Source: Candidatus Tectimicrobiota bacterium (GTDB lineage: Bacteria; JACPUC01). From it: 64,000 bases of DNA. Below the pieces are notes generated by a model, which was not told where the DNA came from, made no database searches, and worked only from the letters and a program-made list of their open reading frames with translations. Positions 31,252-62,822 of the stretch are shown here, one piece after another. The stretch covers positions 1 through 64,000 of the forward strand of contig JACPUC010000016.1 in the NCBI GenBank assembly GCA_016192455.1, in the 5' to 3' direction. Made by a program: the position numbers and the translations under genes. Each line of letters begins with the position of its first letter. The first letter of the stretch is position 1.

Positions 31252-32241
31252 TTATGCTTGGAGATCGTAGCATTTCAGCTTGTTGTAGAGCGTTTTTAAG
31301 CCGATGCCAAGGATCTTGGCGGTTCGCGTCTTGTTGCCGTTCTGGTGCTTCAGAACCCGCAGGATGTGACGCCGCTCAACCTCGGCCAGCGGCAGCGTCT
31401 CCTCATCGACGCGGCGCATGCTCAGCGAGGCAAAGCGGATGTGCGGCGGCAGCTCGTGGAGGCCGACGCGGCCATGCTCCGTCACCACGCGCAGGTGCTC
31501 GAGCAGGTTCTGCAGCTCGCGCACATTTCCGGGCCAGTGGTAGTGCTGCAGCGTGTGCAGCGCCTCGGGGGAGAGCTTCAACGGAGGACGGCCAAGCTCG
31601 CCGCGCGCCAAGAGGAAATGCTCGACAAGCACCGGGATGTCGCTCAGGCGCTGCCGCAACGCCGGCACCTGCAGCGCCACCACATTAAGCCGATAGTAGA
31701 GGTCCTCGCGGAAGCGTCCCGCCTCCACCTCGGCGGTTAAGTCCTTATTCGTCGCCGCGATCACCCGCACGTTGACATGCCGCGTCTTCGTGCTCCCCAG
31801 GCGGCGAATCTCACCCGATTGCAGGACGCGCAACAGCTTCACCTGCATGGGGGGGGTCAGCTCGCCAACCTCGTCGAGGAAGAGGCTGCCGCGGTCCGCC
31901 GCTTCGAAGAGCCCCTGCGTGCTGGCGACCGCGCCAGTAAAGGAGCCCCGCTCATGGCCGAAGAGTTCGCTCTCCATCACGGTCTCTTGCAGGGCCCCGC
32001 AGTTCAACGTGACGAAGGGGCCTTCGCGGCGCTCACTCAGGCTGTGCAGGATCTGCGCCACCAGCTCTTTGCCGGTGCCGCTCTCGCCCTGAATGAGCAC
32101 CGTGACATCCTTTGGCGCCAGTTTCGGCAGCAACCGCCACAGCTCTTGCATGGCAGGGCTGCTGCCGATCATCTGCACCGGCGGCGCATCGTGGCGCTGG
32201 CGCCGTTGCAAAACATTTTCGAAGGGAACGACGTTCGCCAT
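31252..32241 (-). CDS. Sigma-54-dependent activator without receiver domain (AAA+ plus Fis HTH)
   Basis: 329 aa. The AAA+ core starts almost at once: Walker A GESGTGKE (52-59), the sigma-54 contact loop GSFTGA (99-104, a near-standard GAFTGA), Walker B LFLDEVGE (120-127), then YHWPGNVREL. The C-terminal Fis-type helix-turn-helix (NKTRTAKILGIGLKTLYNKL) ends the protein. With only 22 residues before the AAA+ domain there is no sensor domain, like PspF, so activity must be set by another protein or by amount. ATG at 32241 follows GAGAGGCGGG. It is divergent from the RsbW/RsbV genes across a repeat-rich 680-base region. Confidence 0.92.
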   Translation of the reverse strand: MANVVPFENVLQRRQRHDAPPVQMIGSSPAMQELWRLLPKLAPKDVTVLIQGESGTGKELVAQILHSLSERREGPFVTLNCGALQETVMESELFGHERGSFTGAVASTQGLFEAADRGSLFLDEVGELTPPMQVKLLRVLQSGEIRRLGSTKTRHVNVRVIAATNKDLTAEVEAGRFREDLYYRLNVVALQVPALRQRLSDIPVLVEHFLLARGELGRPPLKLSPEALHTLQHYHWPGNVRELQNLLEHLRVVTEHGRVGLHELPPHIRFASLSMRRVDEETLPLAEVERRHILRVLKHQNGNKTRTAKILGIGLKTLYNKLKCYDLQA

Positions 32242-32492
32242 CCCGCCTCTCCCACGGAGCCTGCCAAGGAATCTCCATCGCGCCCTGGCTTCGAATCGCA
32301 TCGTCTCGTCGCCCGTCCCAAAGCAAGCAGAATGCCATCACTCTCCGCCCTCGCAAATCGACCCGGAAGAATCCCAGGAAATCCATGGAACTCCTTGTTA
32401 TGTATAGAGTAACATTTTCAACTCGGAGAACTGCAGCAGACGGCGCTTGGGAGAGCCAGGGGGAGCAAAGGCGGCAGCAACGCAGCTCCTCC

Positions 32493-32506
32493 GCAACTTT
32501 TGTTGC
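32493..32506. repeat. Palindromic site GCAAC-TTTT-GTTGC
   Basis: Five-base arms around TTTT. On the minus strand it reads GCAACAAAAGTTGC, the same core as the two sites at 32573 and 32595. Confidence 0.7.
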
Positions 32507-32532
32507 AACTCGCTGGCCCGCGCTCGAGAGAA

Positions 32533-32566
32533 TCGTGAAACCAATTGAAACTTCACGAGGTTTCAC
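32533..32566. repeat. Two interleaved inverted repeats
   Basis: TCGTGAA (32533-32539) pairs with TTCACGA (32552-32558), and GTGAAACC (32535-32542) pairs with GGTTTCAC (32559-32566). The alternatives share the left arm, so the DNA or RNA could adopt either pairing. A regulator-binding site is the simplest reading. Confidence 0.6.
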
Positions 32567-32572
32567 TTCCAC

Positions 32573-32608
32573 CAAAAGTTGTCGCAAGCGGCAACAAAAG
32601 TTGTTGCC
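32573..32608. repeat. CAAAAGTTGT direct repeat, second copy inside a perfect inverted repeat
   Basis: CAAAAGTTGT occurs at 32573-32582 and 32595-32604, 22 bases apart (about two helical turns). The second copy lies within GGCAACAA-AAG-TTGTTGCC (32590-32608), arms of 8 bp. The spacing puts the sites on the same DNA face. Confidence 0.7.
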
Positions 32609-32920
32609 TTGGACGTTCGCGGCGGCTACACTGTTGCCGTGGCGTGCCTCACCTGGCTCGGATGCCGGCGGCGGCGCACTCCTCGCCACCGAAGGGGAGT
32701 TTTCCGCCGCGGCGGACGGCGGCGGCGCTGTGGCTTGGCGCGGAAGTTGCACCACGAAGCGGCAATCCTCCCGACGAGGTGCGAGGGAGAAGTCCGCGGG
32801 GGTTCCTGCGGCGGTGTGCGTCGTCCGGTTGCGCGGCCCCCAACCTGGCGGAAGTCTCGTCGGTGGGGCAGGCGCGGCGGCGCGCCGTGGATAGGGTCGC
32901 GAGCTCTGCGAGGTAGGCGT

Positions 32921-33430
32921 ATGCCATCCTCTCCGGTCGGCGATCATCCCCCGCTCCCTTCTCCCCTGGTGTTGCTTCGCCTTCCCAGCGATTTTCGCTT
33001 CGAGCGGGTTGCTGTCGACACGGTCACCAGCCTGGCCCGGCAGCTTCGCTTCCCGCACGAGAAAGTGGAAATCCTCAGGACCGCCGTGGGAGAGGCCTAT
33101 CTCAACGCCATCGAGCACGGCAACCGTCGGGACGCCGCGTCGGAGGTGGAAATCTCGTTCGTCGTCGAGGATGGCCAGCTCACCGTGCTGGTGCGGGACG
33201 GCGGCCATGGCTTCGATCTGCAGCGCCTCCCCTCCCCCTGCCTGGAGGAGAAGCTTGCCGGGCACTCGCCGGCGCGCGGCTGGGGGCTCTTCCTCATGCG
33301 CGCCCTGGTGGATGACCTGCGCGTGGATCACTCCGCCACGGGCGGGAATCGCCTCATCATCGTCGTGCGCCGTCAAGCGGGCGAGGGGGCCATGGGAGGA
33401 GCGCCGCCGGCGCGGCCCGGCCTTCCCTAG
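32921..33430 (+). CDS. RsbW-like anti-sigma/serine kinase (HATPase_c_2)
   Basis: 169 aa. The GHKL ATPase boxes are clear: N-box GEAYLNAIEHGN (about 58-69), G1 box VRDGGHGFD (about 91-99) and G2 box ARGWGLFLMRALVDD (about 117-131). This is the RsbW/SpoIIAB-type fold that phosphorylates an STAS antagonist and sequesters a sigma factor or other target. The start at 32921 follows GAGGTAG. It precedes the STAS gene by about 150 bases and a PP2C phosphatase lies 4.7 kb downstream, so a full kinase-antagonist-phosphatase set is present. No RsbW-bound sigma factor gene is in the window; the output target is unknown. Confidence 0.9.
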   Translation: MPSSPVGDHPPLPSPLVLLRLPSDFRFERVAVDTVTSLARQLRFPHEKVEILRTAVGEAYLNAIEHGNRRDAASEVEISFVVEDGQLTVLVRDGGHGFDLQRLPSPCLEEKLAGHSPARGWGLFLMRALVDDLRVDHSATGGNRLIIVVRRQAGEGAMGGAPPARPGLP

Positions 33431-33582
33431 CCCCACGGGGAGGGACCCCGGCGGGCGCATGAGGTGGGCGACAAAGCGACCCCCCGGATGAAACCCGGGC
33501 CGCGGCAGCGCTTGTGGGGAGATTCTTGCGCCTCACGCGGCAGCCGTCGCGCTGCCTCCAGCCGAACCCAGCGAGGAAGGCC

Positions 33583-33936
33583 ATGAGCAACGAGTTCCAC
33601 ATCGAGGTCCAGCGCACCGCCAACGGCCCGCTCCTGCGGTTGCGCGGCGATATCACCGCCTTTGCTGAAGCGCGCTTCGATGAGGCCGTGCAGCCGCTGC
33701 TCAAGGAGGGCTGCGCGCAGATGGTGCTCGATTTCAGCGGCGTTGACTACATCAACAGCGCCGGCATCGCGGTGCTCATCGCCCTCGTCTCCGCCATGAA
33801 GGAGCGCAACGGCGACCTGGCGGCCATCGGCCTCTCCCCGCACTACGAGAAGATCTTCACCATGGTTGGGCTGACGCAGTATATCAAGGTGCGCGGGCGA
33901 TCCGCCGATGCCTCAGCCACAGATGGCCCTGCCTGA
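33583..33936 (+). CDS. STAS domain anti-anti-sigma factor (RsbV-like)
   Basis: 117 aa. It has the STAS pattern LRLRGDITAFAEARFDEAVQPLL, VLDFSGVDYINSAGIAVLIAL, and a C-terminal MVGLTQYIKV helix. Ser59 in YINSAG is the site phosphorylated by RsbW-type kinases. The start has GAGGAAGG at ideal spacing. Dephosphorylated protein would bind the kinase and free its target. It follows the kinase gene on the same strand. Confidence 0.93.
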   Translation: MSNEFHIEVQRTANGPLLRLRGDITAFAEARFDEAVQPLLKEGCAQMVLDFSGVDYINSAGIAVLIALVSAMKERNGDLAAIGLSPHYEKIFTMVGLTQYIKVRGRSADASATDGPA

Positions 33937-34142
33937 GACTGCCCGGCCATCTCCACCTGGAGCTTGCAGACGAGTCCGCCCGAGGTTCGGCCCAAGGTTG
34001 AGGCTGGCGGGCCGATGGAAGAAGTCATGATCGACAGCGGCACGCCCTCCCCGCGGGGATTCCGGTCATCCGCAGCAAGCAGCTTCGCCGTTGCCGCTGC
34101 GGGAGACTCCCTGCTGCGCGCGCGTGCCTTCAGGTGCCTCGC

Positions 34143-36359
<2,217 letters not shown>

Positions 36360-36409
36360 GGGCGGCGCATCCTGCCGCGCCGCGCCCTCCCCGTCCTCGA
36401 GCCTCTACC

Positions 36410-36438
36410 TTGAGCCTGGAGGCACTCCACGCTAGAGT
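36410..36438 (+). promoter_or_regulatory. Sigma-70-like promoter before the binding-protein/phosphatase/OMP genes
   Basis: TTGAGC (36410-36415), a 17-base spacer and TAGAGT (36433-36438) match four of six positions in each box. It lies 35 bases upstream of the GTG at 36473. Confidence 0.45.
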
Positions 36439-36472
36439 AGGATGAGGCTACGGCGAATCCCGGCGAGGCGCC

Positions 36473-38095
36473 GTGGCGCGCTGCACCCTGGTGCCGCCCG
36501 CGCCGGCGGTCCGTCCTTTCGCCCCGCTCTGGAGCCTCGAGCGCTCCCGTGCCGCTGACGATGTGGGGGAAAGCCAGGTGCGCCCTGGTCGCCAGAACCA
36601 GCGCCGGTTCCTCGGCTGCGTGTGCCTCGCCGGCTGGTTTCCATGCTCCCTCCTCAACCTTCCTCGGCGCCGCTGGCACGTCCGCCGGCGGCTGACGCCA
36701 CGCACCGTAGCGTCACCCCTGCGAGCCCTTGGAACCTGCCTCGCCGTCGCCGCCTTGCTGGGGCTGGGGATGTCGCCGCCGCTCGCCGCCCAGCCTCCGC
36801 CGCACGTCTCCCTCTATCGCCCGCTTGCCCCCACCCCCTTCAATGCTCTCCTCGATGCCCTCGTCGCCAAGCTCCGCGAGCGCGGCATGACGGTCCGCGA
36901 GGAGCGCCTGCCTCCTGCGCCGCAGCCTGATCCTCGGGGCGCGCCTCTCGCCGCGGAGCCACCGGATCGCCCCGCGGGGGAAGCCCCCGCAGCGGCGCCC
37001 GGCCAGCCCCCCGGCGTGTTCCTGGTCCTTGGGCTGGAACTGGCGGGGAGGCTGGCAAGCCCAGCATCCCAGCCGCTCCTCGTGTTGAGCGAGAACTGCG
37101 CGAACGGCGCTACGCTGCCCGACTGGCTGCGCCAGCGCCGGGGCCCGACCCAAATCTACTGCCTGGCCCTCTCCACCCAGCAGTGGCTTCTGCCGCTGCG
37201 CCGCCTGCTGCCGCAGGGGAGCCGCCTGGGCCTCATCGCGCTGGAGGCGCCGCCCCCCGCGCCGTCCCCCGCGGCTCCCGGACCGCCGCCGACCGTGCTG
37301 GACGGCAGTCTCGCCGCGCTCGGCGCCGAGCTGGCAACTCTTGGCGTGCAGCTCATCACCCAGGGGGTGCCGAGCCCCGACGCCGTGCCAGCGGCTCTGC
37401 GACTCGCGCGACCCCGCATCGACGCCCTCTGGGTGCCGCCCCGCAGTATCCTCCTGCGCGCCGAGTACATCCCGGAAATCCTGCGCTTCAGTCTCGAGGA
37501 ACGCCTGCCGGTCTTCGTCCCAACGCAGAGTCTCGTGCGCGCCGGCTACCTCGCCGCCGCCGAGGTCGACGAGACGGCGCTCCTGGAGAACCTGCTCCAA
37601 ACCGTCGCGCGGCTCGGCGGTGCGCAACCAGCCGAGCCGCCCGGGCCGACCCCCGCCCCCGCCCCTGCCCGCTACGCCGTGAACGTGGAGACGGCGCGCC
37701 GGCTGGGGCTGCGCGTCCACGCCGAGGAACTGCGCTGGGCGCACGCCGTCTTTCCCTTCCCCTTCGAGGTGCAGGACCTCCTGGATCGTTATGCCGAGGC
37801 CTTTCAGCGCGAGGACGCGCGCCGCTACGAGGCCGCCTTCTGGGAGCCGACGGCGCGTCAGCTCAAGGGCTTTGATCGGTTGATGCGCACCGCGCGCAAT
37901 ATCCAGGTGGAGTTTGAGACCCAACGGGTGGAGTACACCGAGGGAGCGGCGCGCATGCAGATCCACGTCGTTCAGATCTTCACCTTCATCGATGAGATGT
38001 CGGGACGCCAGGTGTCGCTCCGCGCGCCCTTTCAGTTCCAGCTCGAACGCCGGCAGAACGAGTGGCGCATCACCGGCATGCAGCAAGGCGGGTAG
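36473..38095 (+). CDS. Secreted ABC-substrate-binding-like protein with C-terminal NTF2-like domain
   Basis: 540 aa from the GTG at 36473; the true start may lie later (GTG codons at 36578 and 36620), because a signal-peptide-like segment (ALGTCLAVAALLGLGMSPPLAAQ) only occurs at about 85-107. After it comes a fold resembling the DUF/ABC_sub_bind (TrpX-like) family: LVLGLELAGRLASPASQPLLVLSENC, then SRLGLIALEA and LRLARPRIDALWVPPRSILL, with Pro-rich insertions. The last 120 residues (DLLDRYAEAFQREDARRYEAAFW ... NEWRITGMQQ) look NTF2-like. The gene stops 5 bases before the phosphatase start, so the two are coupled. A periplasmic sensor that feeds the phosphatase is a plausible role, by inference. 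Confidence 0.7.
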   Translation: MARCTLVPPAPAVRPFAPLWSLERSRAADDVGESQVRPGRQNQRRFLGCVCLAGWFPCSLLNLPRRRWHVRRRLTPRTVASPLRALGTCLAVAALLGLGMSPPLAAQPPPHVSLYRPLAPTPFNALLDALVAKLRERGMTVREERLPPAPQPDPRGAPLAAEPPDRPAGEAPAAAPGQPPGVFLVLGLELAGRLASPASQPLLVLSENCANGATLPDWLRQRRGPTQIYCLALSTQQWLLPLRRLLPQGSRLGLIALEAPPPAPSPAAPGPPPTVLDGSLAALGAELATLGVQLITQGVPSPDAVPAALRLARPRIDALWVPPRSILLRAEYIPEILRFSLEERLPVFVPTQSLVRAGYLAAAEVDETALLENLLQTVARLGGAQPAEPPGPTPAPAPARYAVNVETARRLGLRVHAEELRWAHAVFPFPFEVQDLLDRYAEAFQREDARRYEAAFWEPTARQLKGFDRLMRTARNIQVEFETQRVEYTEGAARMQIHVVQIFTFIDEMSGRQVSLRAPFQFQLERRQNEWRITGMQQGG

Positions 38096-38100
38096 GTGGC

Positions 38101-40086
38101 ATGAGCTTGCGTACGCTCGGCATTCAAGGCAAGCTCCTGAGCTTCTTCCTGGTGGTGATCATCATCCCGCTGCCACTGCTGGCGAGCGTTGTCTATTGGC
38201 GCAGCAGCGGCGTGGTGAAAGGCCAGGTGCTGGAGCAGCTTGCCTGGATCGCCGGCGAGATGACCGGCAAGGTCGGCAGCGCGCTCTTCACCGCCGGGGA
38301 GCAGGCGCGCCTCCTCGCCAACCTGCCCGACATCCGCAACTACCTACGCGCCCGCGCCTTCGGCCTGCAGGAAGACCTGGCGCGTCAACAGGCGAGCCTG
38401 CGAGAGTACTTCGAGCAGTTCCTGCTGGATCATCCGCGCTTCAGCCACGTCGGCTTCCTCGACGACCGCGGCGGCGCCGTGGCGGCCGCCCCCGCGAGCT
38501 GGAGCGCCGCCGCGCAGCGCGCCGCAGGGGACGAGGAGGCCTTGGCGCTGACCCCGCAACGGGCCACGCGGCGCGTGCTGGCGCCAGCTCAGACTGGGGG
38601 GGAGCCGTTGGTGCGCTTCGTCGTGCCGGTGCAACGTGAGGAGGCCCGCGGCCTGGGCACCGAAGCCGCAAGAGCGGCCCAGGAGCTCCTCGGCAGCTTC
38701 CAGGCCCCCGAGGGCGTGCTCGTCTTGGACATGAACCTCACTGAGCTGCGCAGCATCTTCGCCAGCCTGCGGATCGGGTCGCGCGGGCGGGCGTTCCTCC
38801 TGGACGCCCGGGGAGGGGTGCTGGCAGGGGGTGATGAGCTGAACCGCCTGAACTTTGCCAGCCGCGCCCCCGCCGATCTGGCCTCGCTGCTCGGACGAAT
38901 TGTCGGCGGCATCTCCGGCACCGGCGAGTACGCCTGCTTGGAAACGACCTGCCTCGTCGCCTTCGCGACCCTCACCCAGGAGGGCTGGAAAGCGACCGTG
39001 GTGGCGCCGCAGGCGGACTTCACCCGCTGGGTGGACGAGATGCGCACCCTCACGATCATCTTCACGGCGCTCATCTTCGTGGCCGCGGTGCTGGCCGCGG
39101 TGCTCTTCACCCGGCAGATTTCCGGTCCCCTCCAGGAACTCGATGCCGCCGCCCGCAGAGTTGCCGCGGGTGACTTCTCGGTGCGCGTCAACCTGGCGCG
39201 CCGGGACGAGATCGGCCGCCTCGCCGAGACCTTTGAGAGCATGACGAAACGTCTGCGCGACTACATGGTGGAGATGGAGGAGAAGCAGCGCCTGCAGCAG
39301 GAACTGAGCATCGCCCGGTCGATCCAGGCCAGTTTGCTGCCGCAGCATCCGCCGCGCCTTCCCCGGCTCGACCTGCAAGCCCTCTCCCTGCCGGCCCGCG
39401 AGGTTGGCGGCGACTACTACGATTTCTTCCACCGCCAGGCCGGCCGGCCGAACGAGCGCCTGGGGCTGGCCATCGGCGACGCCTCCGGCAAGGGGGTGCC
39501 GGCCTCCCTGCTGATCTCGATGACGCGCAGCCTCCTGCGCTCGCAGGTGGAGGTCTCCACCTCGCCCGGCGAGGCGGTGGCGGCGGTGAACCGCCTCCTC
39601 TTCGAGGACTGCGTGGGGTTTCGCAACTTCGTCAGCATCTTCTACGCCGAGTTTGAGCCGGCCTCGTTGACCTTGCGCTGCGCCAACGCCGGCCAGCTCT
39701 TCCCTCTGTACTGCCGGGGGCGCGATCGTCATATTGAGTTCCTGACGCTGCCCGGCACGCCCCTTGGGGTGCGCAGCGATGCGCAGTTCCCCGAGGCCAC
39801 CCTGGTTCTGGAGCCGGAGGACGTCCTCGTCCTCTATACTGATGGCATCGTGGAGGCGATGGACGAGCGGCGCCGCATGTACAGCTTCGACCGCCTGCAG
39901 CGCACCATCCAGCGCCTGGCGGCGGGTTCGGCCAGAGCCATCATCGATGCCATCATCGAAGACGTGACAAAGTTTTGCGGCGGCGAGGCGCCGAATGATG
40001 ATATGACCCTCATCGTCATGAAGGTCAGGGAGGGCGCGCCGCGCGACGAGGCGCTCTCCGGCACGGAGGCGGGAGCGGAGGGATGA
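38101..40086 (+). CDS. Membrane-bound SpoIIE/RsbU-type PP2C phosphatase with HAMP domain
   Basis: 661 aa. Two membrane helices (about 13-33 and 317-340) enclose a 280-residue periplasmic sensor of the double-Cache type (RFSHVGFLDDRGGAV; RGRAFLLDARGGVLAGG). A HAMP linker follows (about 340-395) and then a coiled stretch. The PP2C/SpoIIE domain has EVGGDYYDFF (about 435), GDASGKGVPAS (about 459), YTDGIVEAMD (about 579) and NDDMTLIV (about 632), so all metal-binding Asp residues are present. It should dephosphorylate the STAS protein in response to an outside signal. It sits between the secreted binding-like protein and an outer-membrane protein gene, overlapping the latter by 4 bases (ATGA). 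Confidence 0.92.
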   Translation: MSLRTLGIQGKLLSFFLVVIIIPLPLLASVVYWRSSGVVKGQVLEQLAWIAGEMTGKVGSALFTAGEQARLLANLPDIRNYLRARAFGLQEDLARQQASLREYFEQFLLDHPRFSHVGFLDDRGGAVAAAPASWSAAAQRAAGDEEALALTPQRATRRVLAPAQTGGEPLVRFVVPVQREEARGLGTEAARAAQELLGSFQAPEGVLVLDMNLTELRSIFASLRIGSRGRAFLLDARGGVLAGGDELNRLNFASRAPADLASLLGRIVGGISGTGEYACLETTCLVAFATLTQEGWKATVVAPQADFTRWVDEMRTLTIIFTALIFVAAVLAAVLFTRQISGPLQELDAAARRVAAGDFSVRVNLARRDEIGRLAETFESMTKRLRDYMVEMEEKQRLQQELSIARSIQASLLPQHPPRLPRLDLQALSLPAREVGGDYYDFFHRQAGRPNERLGLAIGDASGKGVPASLLISMTRSLLRSQVEVSTSPGEAVAAVNRLLFEDCVGFRNFVSIFYAEFEPASLTLRCANAGQLFPLYCRGRDRHIEFLTLPGTPLGVRSDAQFPEATLVLEPEDVLVLYTDGIVEAMDERRRMYSFDRLQRTIQRLAAGSARAIIDAIIEDVTKFCGGEAPNDDMTLIVMKVREGAPRDEALSGTEAGAEG

Positions 40087-41198
40087 TGCGGCGCCGTCGT
40101 CCAGGCAGCAAGGCGCGTTGGCTGCTCCGCCTCCTGGCGCTGCTTGGGGCCGCGGCGGTAGTGTGGGCGGCGCCGCGGCAGGCCCCTGGGCAGGACCTCT
40201 TCGGCGACCTCCTCATCTTTCGCCCGCAGGCGCAGATTGATCAGGTGCGGCGGGGCATCTCGCGGGGCATCTCGCGCATCCCCTTCAGCTCCACACCCGG
40301 CGGCTTCGTCTTCCGCTTCAATCCCGAGTTGGGCATTCCGCAGCCCGTCTCCGAGAGCCTCGGGCCCTCATTCGTGGAACGCGCCCCGACCCTCGGCCGG
40401 GGCATCATCTCGGCTGGCATCTCGGTCACGCACCTGAACTTCGACCTCCTCGAAGGCGTGGACCTGGACGACCTCTTCGACGCCACGGTGGTGGAGCAAC
40501 CGGGCGGCCTGCTGACGATCACGCGTCGGCAGGACGTCAACCTCAAGCTAGAGCAGACGCTGCTGGCGGTCAGCGGCTTCTATGGCTTGAGCGAGCGCTT
40601 CGACCTCGGGATCGTCGTGCCGTTCGTCTCCAATCGCCTGCGCGCCGTGTCAAGCATCTCCGGAACGCGCCAGCTCGCGGGGGGAGAGCCCCGTCCCCTC
40701 CCCGCCACGGTGACCGCGAGCACCTTGAACGAACAGGGGCTGGGGGATGTGCTCCTGCGGGCCAAGTATTTCTTCGCGGAGTCCCGCTTCCCGTTCGAGT
40801 TTGCCGTTGCGCTCGACCTCAAGCTGCCAACCGGCGATGAAGAGCGACTCCTTGGCAACGGCGATCTTGAGGTGCGCCCCCTGACGATCGCCTCGCGCTC
40901 GTTCGGTCCCTTCACCCCGCACCTCAACCTGGGCGCCATCCTGAACACGCGCAGCAGCGAAGGGAGCGGGTTCTTCTACGGTGCGGGCGCGGACGTGCGC
41001 CTCCTGTCGAGGCTGACGGCATCCGTCGAGTACTTCGCCCAGACGGATGAGGAGGACACCATCGCCGACCTTGCCCTGGGCCTGAAATGGAACCCTTGGA
41101 AGCGCCTGGTGCTGCGTGGCAGCCTGCGCTGGAGCGTCAACGAGGACGGGCTGCGCGACCGTCTCACCCCAACGTTCGGTATCGAGGCGAGCTTTTGA
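40083..41198 (+). CDS. Predicted outer-membrane beta-barrel protein
   Basis: 371 aa. A signal peptide (LLRLLALLGAAAVVWAA) is followed by alternating beta strands with aromatic and Gly residues (LLAVSGFYGLSERFDLGIVVPFVSNRL; FEFAVALDLKLPTGDEERLLGNG; GAGADVRLLSRLTASVEYFAQ; NPWKRLVLRGSLRW). It ends in Phe (GIEASF), the usual BAM signal. It resembles the phenol/MetA-pathway transporter-like (DUF3187/Phenol_MetA_deg) barrels. The start ATG overlaps the phosphatase stop, so it is the last gene of the signalling operon. Function is unknown; a porin or sensor in the outer membrane are options. Confidence 0.8.
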   Translation: MMRRRRPGSKARWLLRLLALLGAAAVVWAAPRQAPGQDLFGDLLIFRPQAQIDQVRRGISRGISRIPFSSTPGGFVFRFNPELGIPQPVSESLGPSFVERAPTLGRGIISAGISVTHLNFDLLEGVDLDDLFDATVVEQPGGLLTITRRQDVNLKLEQTLLAVSGFYGLSERFDLGIVVPFVSNRLRAVSSISGTRQLAGGEPRPLPATVTASTLNEQGLGDVLLRAKYFFAESRFPFEFAVALDLKLPTGDEERLLGNGDLEVRPLTIASRSFGPFTPHLNLGAILNTRSSEGSGFFYGAGADVRLLSRLTASVEYFAQTDEEDTIADLALGLKWNPWKRLVLRGSLRWSVNEDGLRDRLTPTFGIEASF

Positions 41199-60126: not shown

Positions 60127-61137
60127 CTACTTTTTCAGCTTGGCGGTCTCGACCGCTTTCTCGCCGAAGCCGTGGATGTTCACCTTCTCGATGGGGAGCC
60201 GCTTCTTCAGGGCCTTGTTGAAGACGAGGATATCCTGCAGCGCGTTGGTCGCCTCATCCGAGACGATCGGGTCGCTGCGCCATGTCTGCTGCTTGCGGTA
60301 GCGCTCCAGGGCAGTGACCAGGACCTCTGGCGGCACGCCGTCGTAGTAGGCCGTGATCGCCTGCGCAATCTCCTTCGAGGAGTGCGCGTCGGTCCACTGC
60401 ATCCCCTTGTGGATCGCGTTCGTGAACTTCTGGATGATGTCGGGGTGCGCCTTGATGTACGACGCCAGGGCGGCGAAGGTGGTGTAGGCGAGGAGGCCAC
60501 CCTCCACGCCGATGGAGGCGACCGTCGTGCCGATGCCCATCTTCTCGACCTGCGTGACCGCGGGCTCCGACATGGCTGTATAGTCGCCGCGCCCCTCGAT
60601 GAAGGCCGGCGCTTGGGTGGGGGGCGTCAGGGGCGTTACCGTAACGTCTTTCCCTGGCTGCAAGCCGTGCTTCGAAAGTACCCAGAGAAAGACAAAATGT
60701 GGGGTGCTCGCAGGCCGGACCGTCAGCACCGTCTTGCCCTTCAACCCCGCCCAAGTGAACGCTGGCTGGCCCTTGCGCGCCACCAGGAAGGTCGTGTCGC
60801 GCTGCGTGAGCTGCGCAAAGGTGAGGGCCGGGTCGGGCACGCCCTGCTCGACGGCGTAGTAGGTCACCTCGGGACCGAGGAGCGAGATGTCGTCCTGCTT
60901 CGTGAGCAGGGCCGAGAGACTCTTGTCGCCGCCCCAGGCGGTGCGGAACTCGATCTCCAACCCTTCGTCGCCGAAGTAGCCATTGCTCAAGGCGACGTAC
61001 TGCGGCGCGTAGGCGAGGGACCGTACCACCTCATTGAAGCGCACCTTCTGCTTCGCCCAGCTCTGGGCGTGCGCCGCCGACAGGGCGACGGAGAGGCTGA
61101 GCAGCAGCACCAGAACAAGGAGCACGCGTCTTCCCAT
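60127..61137 (-). CDS. ABC transporter substrate-binding protein, NMT1 type (duplicate A)
   Basis: 336 aa. Signal peptide (LLVLVLLLSLSVALSAAHA), then KVRFNEVVRSLAYAPQYVALSNGYFGDEGLEIEF, typical of NMT1/SsuA receptors. It matches the 61514-62524 protein over its full length, with differences clustered around residues 135-200 (VRPASTPHFVFLWVLSKHG; RGDYTAMSEPAVTQV), the ligand-facing domain. AGGGGGG precedes the ATG. It is the last gene of the importer operon. Confidence 0.92.
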   Translation of the reverse strand: MGRRVLLVLVLLLSLSVALSAAHAQSWAKQKVRFNEVVRSLAYAPQYVALSNGYFGDEGLEIEFRTAWGGDKSLSALLTKQDDISLLGPEVTYYAVEQGVPDPALTFAQLTQRDTTFLVARKGQPAFTWAGLKGKTVLTVRPASTPHFVFLWVLSKHGLQPGKDVTVTPLTPPTQAPAFIEGRGDYTAMSEPAVTQVEKMGIGTTVASIGVEGGLLAYTTFAALASYIKAHPDIIQKFTNAIHKGMQWTDAHSSKEIAQAITAYYDGVPPEVLVTALERYRKQQTWRSDPIVSDEATNALQDILVFNKALKKRLPIEKVNIHGFGEKAVETAKLKK

Positions 61138-61466: not shown

Positions 61467-62822
61467 TGCGACGCCATGCCGGCGCGACGGCGTATGACTC
61501 CGCCGTGTTCCTCCTACTTTTTCAGCTTGGCGGTCTCGACCGCCTTCTCGCCGAAGCCGTGGATGTTCACCTTCTCGATGGGAAGCTGCTTCTTCAGGGC
61601 CTTGTTGAAGACGAGGATATCCTGCAGCGCATTGGTCGCCTCATCGGAGATAATCGGGTCGCTGCGCCATGTCTGCTGCTTGCGGTAGCGCTCCAGGGCC
61701 GTCACCAGGATGTCCATGGCAACGCCGTCGTAGTAGCTCTTGATCGCCTCGGCGATCTCCTTCGACGAGTGCGCGTCGGTCCACCGCATCCCCTTGTAGA
61801 TCGCGTTCGTGAACTTCTGGATGATGTCCGGATGCGCCTTAATGTACGACGCCAGGGCGGCGTAGGTGGTGTAGGCGAGGAGGCCCCCCTCCAGGCCGAG
61901 GGAGGCGACCGTCGTGCCAATCCCCATTTTCTCAACCTGCGTGACCCCAACCTCCCACAGGGCGGCGTAGTCGCCGCGCCCTTCCATGAATGCTGGCGCC
62001 AGGGTGGGGGACGACAGGGGCGTTACCATAACGTCTTTCCCTGGCTGCAGGCCATGCTTCGCGAGCACCCAGAGAAAGACCATGTGAGGAGTGACCCCGG
62101 GCGAGGTGGTCAGCACGGTCTTACCCTTCAACCCCGCCCAGGTGAACGGCGGCTGGCCCTTGCGCGCCACGAGAAAGGTGACGTCGCGCTGCGTGAGCTG
62201 CGCAAAGGTCAGGACCGGGTCGGGCACGCCCTGCTCGGTGGCGTAGTAGGTCACCTCGGGACCGAGGAGCGCGATCTCATCCTGCTTCGTGATCAGACCC
62301 GACAGGCTCTTGCCGCCGCCCCAGGCGGTGCGGAACTCGATCTCCAGCCCCTCGTCGCCGAAGTAGCCATTGCTCAAGGCGACGTACTGCGGCGTGTAGC
62401 CGAGGGACCGTACCACCTCACTGAAGCGCACCTTCTGCTTCGCCCCACTTTGCGCCTGCGCCGCCGCGAGGGCGACGGAGAGGCTGAGCAGCAGCACCAG
62501 AACAAAGAGGACACGTCTTCCCATGGTCTACCCCCCCTTTCGAGCGAGTTGAGAGATCAGTCTGGACTGACAGGATCACCTGCCGCCCCAGGAGCGGGCA
62601 GGCTCTCCCTCGTGCCGACGCGCCGCCGCCTGCGCCGGCGGTGTGCAGAGCCGCGGCGGGCGGCGGACGGAACTTGCCGGCGCCGCCCCAGCCGGGCGCT
62701 CACTCCTTCCAAACCAGCAGCCGCCGCTCCAGCAGACTCACCACCAGGTACATCGCGGTGGCGAGCACCGAGAGCACGGCGATGCTCGTCATCACCAGGT
62801 GCAGGTTGAAGAGGTGGCCGCC
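61467..62822 (-). repeat. Tandem duplication unit B (binding protein plus permease 3' end)
   Basis: Probable parent copy: here the permease end belongs to an intact gene. See unit A at 60082-61425. Confidence 0.85.
61514..62524 (-). CDS. ABC transporter substrate-binding protein, NMT1 type (duplicate B)
   Basis: 336 aa, with signal peptide and NMT1 fold as in the duplicate at 60127. Key differences are in the middle domain (TSPGVTPHMVFLWVLAKHG; RGDYAALWEVGVTQV). AAAGGGGGGG precedes the ATG. It follows the permease by 175 bases. Which copy keeps the original ligand cannot be told from sequence. Confidence 0.92.
   Translation of the reverse strand: MGRRVLFVLVLLLSLSVALAAAQAQSGAKQKVRFSEVVRSLGYTPQYVALSNGYFGDEGLEIEFRTAWGGGKSLSGLITKQDEIALLGPEVTYYATEQGVPDPVLTFAQLTQRDVTFLVARKGQPPFTWAGLKGKTVLTTSPGVTPHMVFLWVLAKHGLQPGKDVMVTPLSSPTLAPAFMEGRGDYAALWEVGVTQVEKMGIGTTVASLGLEGGLLAYTTYAALASYIKAHPDIIQKFTNAIYKGMRWTDAHSSKEIAEAIKSYYDGVAMDILVTALERYRKQQTWRSDPIISDEATNALQDILVFNKALKKQLPIEKVNIHGFGEKAVETAKLKK

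Follow-up and report, generated by a model that had tools for sequence, protein, structure and literature searches.

A partner-switching gene set beside a GVATGV-loop activator in a Candidatus Tectimicrobiota genome and its possible connection to sigma54-type transcription

Genes of the locus

The window analyzed here, a stretch of 64,000 nucleotides from a Candidatus Tectimicrobiota genome (G000), carries seven genes between positions 31252 and 41198. The types that a sequence-only reading of this DNA had given to all seven are confirmed, for six of them with Pfam at scores above the curated cut-offs, with NCBIfam also run, and with solved-structure matches for the kinase, the STAS protein, and the phosphatase. 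The first gene, EBP1 (31252-32241, minus strand), encodes a sensorless sigma54-type activator, and the remaining six are on the plus strand. They encode an RsbW/SpoIIAB-like GHKL ATPase (the kinase, 32921-33430), a STAS antagonist (33583-33936), the GAF-AAA+-HTH_8 activator EBP2 (34143-36359), a secreted binding-protein-like protein (36620-38095, with an uncertain start in an ORF that opens at 36473), a dCache-HAMP-PP2C phosphatase of the SpoIIE type (38101-40086), and an outer-membrane beta-barrel of the Phenol_MetA_deg type (40083-41198; PF13557, 2e-7). The gaps between kinase and STAS and between STAS and EBP2 are intergenic spaces of 150-200 bp. The last three genes are tightly coupled, as had been described, by a 5-bp gap and then a 4-bp ATGA overlap, and the reported absence of a sigma factor gene from this stretch holds.

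The three switch proteins retain their characteristic residues. The kinase has a HATPase_c_2 domain (PF13581, 4e-25), its best PDB matches are RsbW (6m36, 4e-13) and SpoIIAB, and the alignment shows the N-box EAYLNAIEHGN with its Glu and Asn and the G-box RGWGL. The STAS protein (PF01740, 6e-16) finds its best solved-structure matches among SpoIIAA/RsbV-type proteins, and its Ser59, within INSAG, aligns with their phospho-acceptor; the alignment extends to the STAS counterparts at the loci considered below. The phosphatase has the Pfam architecture dCache_1-HAMP-SpoIIE, a match to a solved structure, and the PP2C motifs GGDYYD, GDASGKG, and NDD. Thus, a PP2C phosphatase, a STAS protein with a phospho-acceptor serine, and a GHKL kinase are encoded together, which is the Rsb-type composition.

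G000 comprises 4.46 Mb in 31 contigs, is 88% complete, and is the single representative of its phylum in the comparison set. Genome-wide, at this completeness, one SpoIIE, two STAS, and three full HATPase_c_2 proteins were counted, the phosphatase of the window being the only SpoIIE-type protein found, and the window locus is therefore the only place in G000 where all three switch parts occur. Nine sigma70-type factors are encoded outside the locus, namely RpoD, one RpoH-like, two RpoS-like, one FliA-like, and four ECF factors (the RpoH-like and RpoS-like labels being our reading from domains and length), and there is one RpoN. A second cluster devoid of sigma factors, kinase-STAS-kinase, lies on contig 22 (G000:C22:94146-95367; L022) and is followed by a secretin-like lipoprotein gene; no phosphatase gene was present in the stretch read around it.

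The secreted protein begins with a hydrophobic leader. It had no Pfam match and so does not reach the gathering score of PF04392, and its phmmer matches range from 1e-8 to 1e-14. Two matched proteins that were tested belong to PF04392 (1e-32 to 1e-34), so that, by sequence comparison, the protein resembles ABC_sub_bind proteins only at a distance; its C-terminal domain matches no assigned family. Its single-sequence structure model had a mean pLDDT of 45, with the C-terminal part alone near 70-80, and its quality could not support a search by fold. A cassette in another genome (L004) consists of a TonB-receptor-like gene, recognized by eye, an ABC_sub_bind gene, and a Cache-HAMP-PAS sensor gene. 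Since the trio of the window is made of the same kinds of parts, the input end seems to follow a familiar scheme in which a PP2C domain replaces the other sensor output. Elsewhere in the window, 60127-61137 and 61514-62524 hold a tandem pair of very similar genes for 336-aa secreted binding-protein-like proteins.

The two activators and the GVATGV class

EBP1 is encoded by an ORF spanning 31252-32301 on the minus strand, with a likely ATG at 32241. Pfam assigns Sigma54_activat, AAA_lid, and HTH_8 domains to it and no sensor domain. Its loop reads GSFTGA, which is among the loop variants that retain activity (PMC4641369).

EBP2 consists of GAF, Sigma54_activat, and HTH_8 domains, and thus has the AAA+ domain with Walker A and the Fis-type helix-turn-helix expected of a sigma54 activator. 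Its best NCBIfam match is NifA (TIGR01817) at 356.6 bits, short of the cut-off of 528.85. It had been described as a regulator without GAFTGA, which is literally true; the loop is GVATGV, one residue shorter, and the Thr-Gly core of the motif is kept. Its best homologues among 386 genomes have the same loop and a one-residue deletion after it. GVATGV-loop proteins form one clade (14/14 members, bootstrap 92). The exact pattern FGIxxGVATGV was found in 11 genes in 9 of the 386 genomes, and the reversed control pattern gave zero matches in that set. G000 has no second copy: it encodes 12 full sigma54-type activators, and among the 11 with a loop read, only EBP2 has GVATGV. A scan of named genomes with EBP2 returned one ordinary GAFTGA activator, from Dethiosulfatibacter.

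The same loop is present in DVUA0100 of Desulfovibrio (Nitratidesulfovibrio) vulgaris, a predicted activator of sigma54 promoters at a type III secretion (T3SS) locus (PMC4641369). By loop and tree, the assignment of EBP2 to this rare, previously seen DVUA0100-type class is well supported. Since the Thr-Gly core is kept and DVUA0100 is predicted to use sigma54, the absence of GAFTGA is no argument for a route free of sigma54. The unusual route to transcription that had been suggested, if it meant a bypass of sigma54, is not supported, given the prediction for this published relative and the sigma54-type sites that flank the genes.

Proteins of about 1800 aa with a C-terminal activator AAA+ domain and xVATGV-like loops occur at L123:5030-10522, L128:5478-11108, and L147:6182-11542. 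The N-terminus of the L123 protein was recognized by eye as a Ser/Thr-kinase-like domain.

The divergent promoter region

EBP1 and the kinase gene diverge from a gap of 0.68 kb, which was scanned for -24/-12 elements with our own simple weighted consensus; the sites reported are sequence matches. Upstream of EBP1 lies the sigma54-type site TGGCATTCTGCTTGCT (32322-32337, minus strand; score 23.5 of 27), and sites like it occur in G000 at 0.038 per kb. Upstream of the kinase gene lies TGGCGCGGAAGTTGCA (32736-32751, plus strand), the best-scoring site in the 64-kb window. In a composition-matched model of the gap, any site that strong arose in 2.7% of trials and the pair in 0/4000. The scan is plausible in that high-scoring sites also precede FlgM and an RpoS-like gene in G000. 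Between the EBP2 gene and the one for the secreted protein, a sigma54-like sequence was discarded as a weak match.

Between the two predicted promoters lie CAACNNNNGTTG palindromes, read as part of a candidate enhancer (32490-32607, without strand). It contains CAACTTTTGTTG at 32494-32505 and CAACAAAAGTTG at 32592-32603, together with the near copy CACCAAAAGTTG at 32570-32581, and the distances to the predicted promoters are about 130-260 bp, a usual enhancer-promoter distance. CAAC-N4-GTTG occurs eight times in 1.26 Mb of G000, and two of these occurrences are in the EBP1/kinase gap, 98 bp apart. No second paired enhancer with sigma54-type sites was found elsewhere in that 1.26 Mb.

Related sites accompany related activators. 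On the plasmid of strain DP4, the 0.7-kb divergent T3SS promoter region contains two copies of CAAC-N3-GTTG, and it is for this region that the DVUA0100 motif has been predicted (PMC4641369). At locus L125, CAAC-N3-GTTG occurs once, just upstream of the sigma54-type site that follows the activator. The spacer is thus 4 in the window and 3 in DP4 and L125. The recognition helix EGLRKK is common to EBP2 and the activators of DP4 and L125, and for this reason CAAC-N4-GTTG was assigned to EBP2 rather than EBP1. From this shared helix, we infer that EBP2 is the probable owner of the candidate enhancer.

Recurrence of the switch beside GVATGV activators

A complete kinase, STAS, and PP2C set adjoins 3 of the 11 exact-loop genes, namely those of the window and of loci L126 (genome G354) and L145 (genome G082). 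The latter two lie outside the phylum of the window, and both have the order activator, kinase, STAS, GAF-PP2C on one strand. The only sigma54-type site of L126 and the best one of L145 both fall in the activator-kinase interval, on the same strand as the genes. No complete switch was found beside other activators in 40 control neighborhoods or beside the 11 other activators of G000 (0/51). The Fisher value for the association is 0.004 and becomes 0.025 when the window is excluded; some control stretches are shorter than 10 kb, and the switch loci are not fully independent because the L126 and L145 activators are sister sequences (support 99). In both loci, a hydrophobic ORF of about 50 aa separates the kinase gene from the sigma54-type site (L126:8887-9054, minus strand; L145:10866-11018, plus strand), and none was seen in the window.

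A fourth case comes from the literature. On the plasmids of N. vulgaris DP4 and RCH1, the DVUA0100 orthologue is followed by one small ORF and a SpoIIE-type gene. In DP4, the loop of this orthologue is GVATGV, the SpoIIE-type protein is a Cache-HAMP-SpoIIE phosphatase as in the window, and the T3SS locus that holds these genes also encodes the kinase and STAS, at a distance of about 25 kb from the activator. The sigma54 regulome paper that describes DVUA0100 makes no mention of STAS, phosphatase, or anti-sigma factors (PMC4641369). No sigma factor gene was noticed near the switch in the L126, L145, and DP4 plasmid tables. Altogether, 3 to 4 of 12 GVATGV activators have switch neighbors and the remainder do not, and in the tree the switch-linked members do not group as a single subclade. 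At L075:3439-6906, a STAS gene and a PP2C gene precede a PAS-type sigma54 activator gene that overlaps the PP2C gene. The link to a switch is not exclusive to the GVATGV class, since this activator has an ordinary GAFTGA.

The full seven-gene set has no second instance among the loci compared here. The description of the 10-kb stretch as an envelope-signaling module agrees with its anatomy, given the Cache-HAMP PP2C, the secreted protein, and the barrel. As a conserved unit it must be shortened to less than 10 kb, because no barrel, secreted protein, or EBP1 turned up at the other switch loci. As far as seen, these three are add-ons of the window lineage.

A possible circuit and its alternatives

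From these observed parts, with their catalytic motifs, the promoter-like and enhancer-like sites, and the recurrence of the switch with a GVATGV activator, a circuit may be proposed in which a partner-switching operon has a sigma54 activator as its output and no free sigma factor. We give this reading about an even chance of being right. The membrane PP2C would respond to a ligand through its Cache domain, and the barrel and the secreted protein could plausibly help to deliver this ligand. The activated PP2C would dephosphorylate STAS, and unphosphorylated STAS would then pull the RsbW-like kinase off the AAA+ domain of EBP2; alternatively, STAS might license EBP2 directly. Freed EBP2 would bind the CAAC-N4-GTTG enhancer and drive two divergent sigma54 promoters, those of its own switch operon and of EBP1, and EBP1 would act further downstream. 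The sequence-only reading had proposed that the kinase acts on or with an AAA+ protein; the partnership is favored by the recurrence beside GVATGV activators and not beside the 51 others, and the contact itself and its direction are what we infer. EBP2 may also need no protein partner, since it has a GAF domain of its own. The broader idea, that GVATGV activators in general, a phylogenetically broad class, are under the control of Rsb-type switches whose GHKL kinase or STAS protein serves as a direct anti-activator or co-activator, is put forward tentatively and with slightly less confidence than an even chance.

Since a sigma54-type site immediately precedes the kinase gene in each of three genomes, the GVATGV activator might merely turn on the kinase/STAS/PP2C operon via sigma54, and the kinase might hold a remote RpoS-like or ECF factor as in the classical Rsb system. 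The two RpoS-like, one RpoH-like, and four ECF factors of G000 are possible targets of this kind, and the RsbW of Chlamydia binds the main sigma factor, which is encoded elsewhere (PMC11619594). Against this stand the lack of sigma factor genes in the window stretch, with none noticed near the switches of the other three loci, and, for FliA, the only group-3 factor, the presence of FlgM in G000, which provides it with an anti-sigma factor of its own and makes it an unlikely target. On balance, a remote sigma factor as the target is rather unlikely. STAS could instead be the effector, a role proposed for SypA and RbaV (PMC8256260), with EBP1, EBP2, or a different protein as its target and with the kinase serving only to phosphorylate it. 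The syp locus of V. fischeri does hold the sigma54-type regulator SypG. Moreover, several STAS-only proteins act in the unphosphorylated form, and their targets are not known (PMC8256260). The kinase, however, has its RsbW-type boxes intact, and the solved structures nearest to it are those of true anti-sigma factors; this speaks against the explanation, which we regard as improbable. A chance neighborhood of two independent regulators, in which a phosphatase of the envelope, accompanied by a binding protein and a barrel, lies beside an unrelated activator pair, would agree with the single occurrence of the seven-gene set and with the intergenic gaps between kinase, STAS, and EBP2. Nevertheless, the same switch stands beside the same rare activator class in unrelated genomes, and in G000 the sole SpoIIE gene and one of the only two STAS genes are about 4 kb apart, and we regard coincidence as very improbable.

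Comparison with known systems and significance

RsbU-RsbV-RsbW and SpoIIE-SpoIIAA-SpoIIAB resemble the window in their PP2C, their STAS protein with a phospho-acceptor serine, and their GHKL kinase; in contrast, the window operon has no sigma factor and has a sigma54 activator in its place. SypA, SypE, and SypG of Vibrio fischeri likewise combine a STAS switch and a sigma54-type regulator within one locus. Unlike the window proteins, SypE combines kinase and phosphatase in one protein, and SypG is a response regulator. The target of SypA is not known (PMC8256260). For the proposed contact, a precedent is NifL-NifA, in which NifA, a GAF-AAA+ sigma54 activator, is contacted at its AAA+ domain by the GHKL/DHp domains of NifL and restrained by the GHKL ATPase domain (PMC12998174); the same arrangement here is a proposal. 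NifL differs in being PAS-based and acting without phosphotransfer, and NifL-NifA has neither STAS nor PP2C.

Targets have yet to be assigned to many STAS/RsbW switches that lack a sigma factor (PMC8256260). Several lineages have one defined, rare activator class next to a complete switch, together with promoter and enhancer sites that match, and this reduces the question of targets to a small set of pairwise tests. If the proposal is true, activators would be a general answer to the targets of orphan switches, and the partner-switching and sigma54 fields would be joined. Among the papers covered by a text search, none has both "GAFTGA" and "partner switching". What is new here is the joining of partner switching to a GVATGV sigma54 activator, an interpretation that is partly supported and limited by small numbers.

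The DVUA0100 locus on pDV1 is among the closest to the window, with a GVATGV activator, Cache-HAMP-SpoIIE, STAS, and kinase genes in the same locus (strain DP4), and CAAC-GTTG sites in the divergent promoter region, there with N3. It differs in controlling a T3SS, of which no genes were seen in the window, in having its kinase and STAS genes in the opposite operon, and in that DVUA0100, unlike EBP2, has no GAF domain by Pfam. One such pair of switch and activator is thereby available in D. vulgaris, which is open to genetic work; in strain DP4 the switch genes and the DVUA0100 orthologue are located at NC_008741.1 45366-46133 and 70538-74912.
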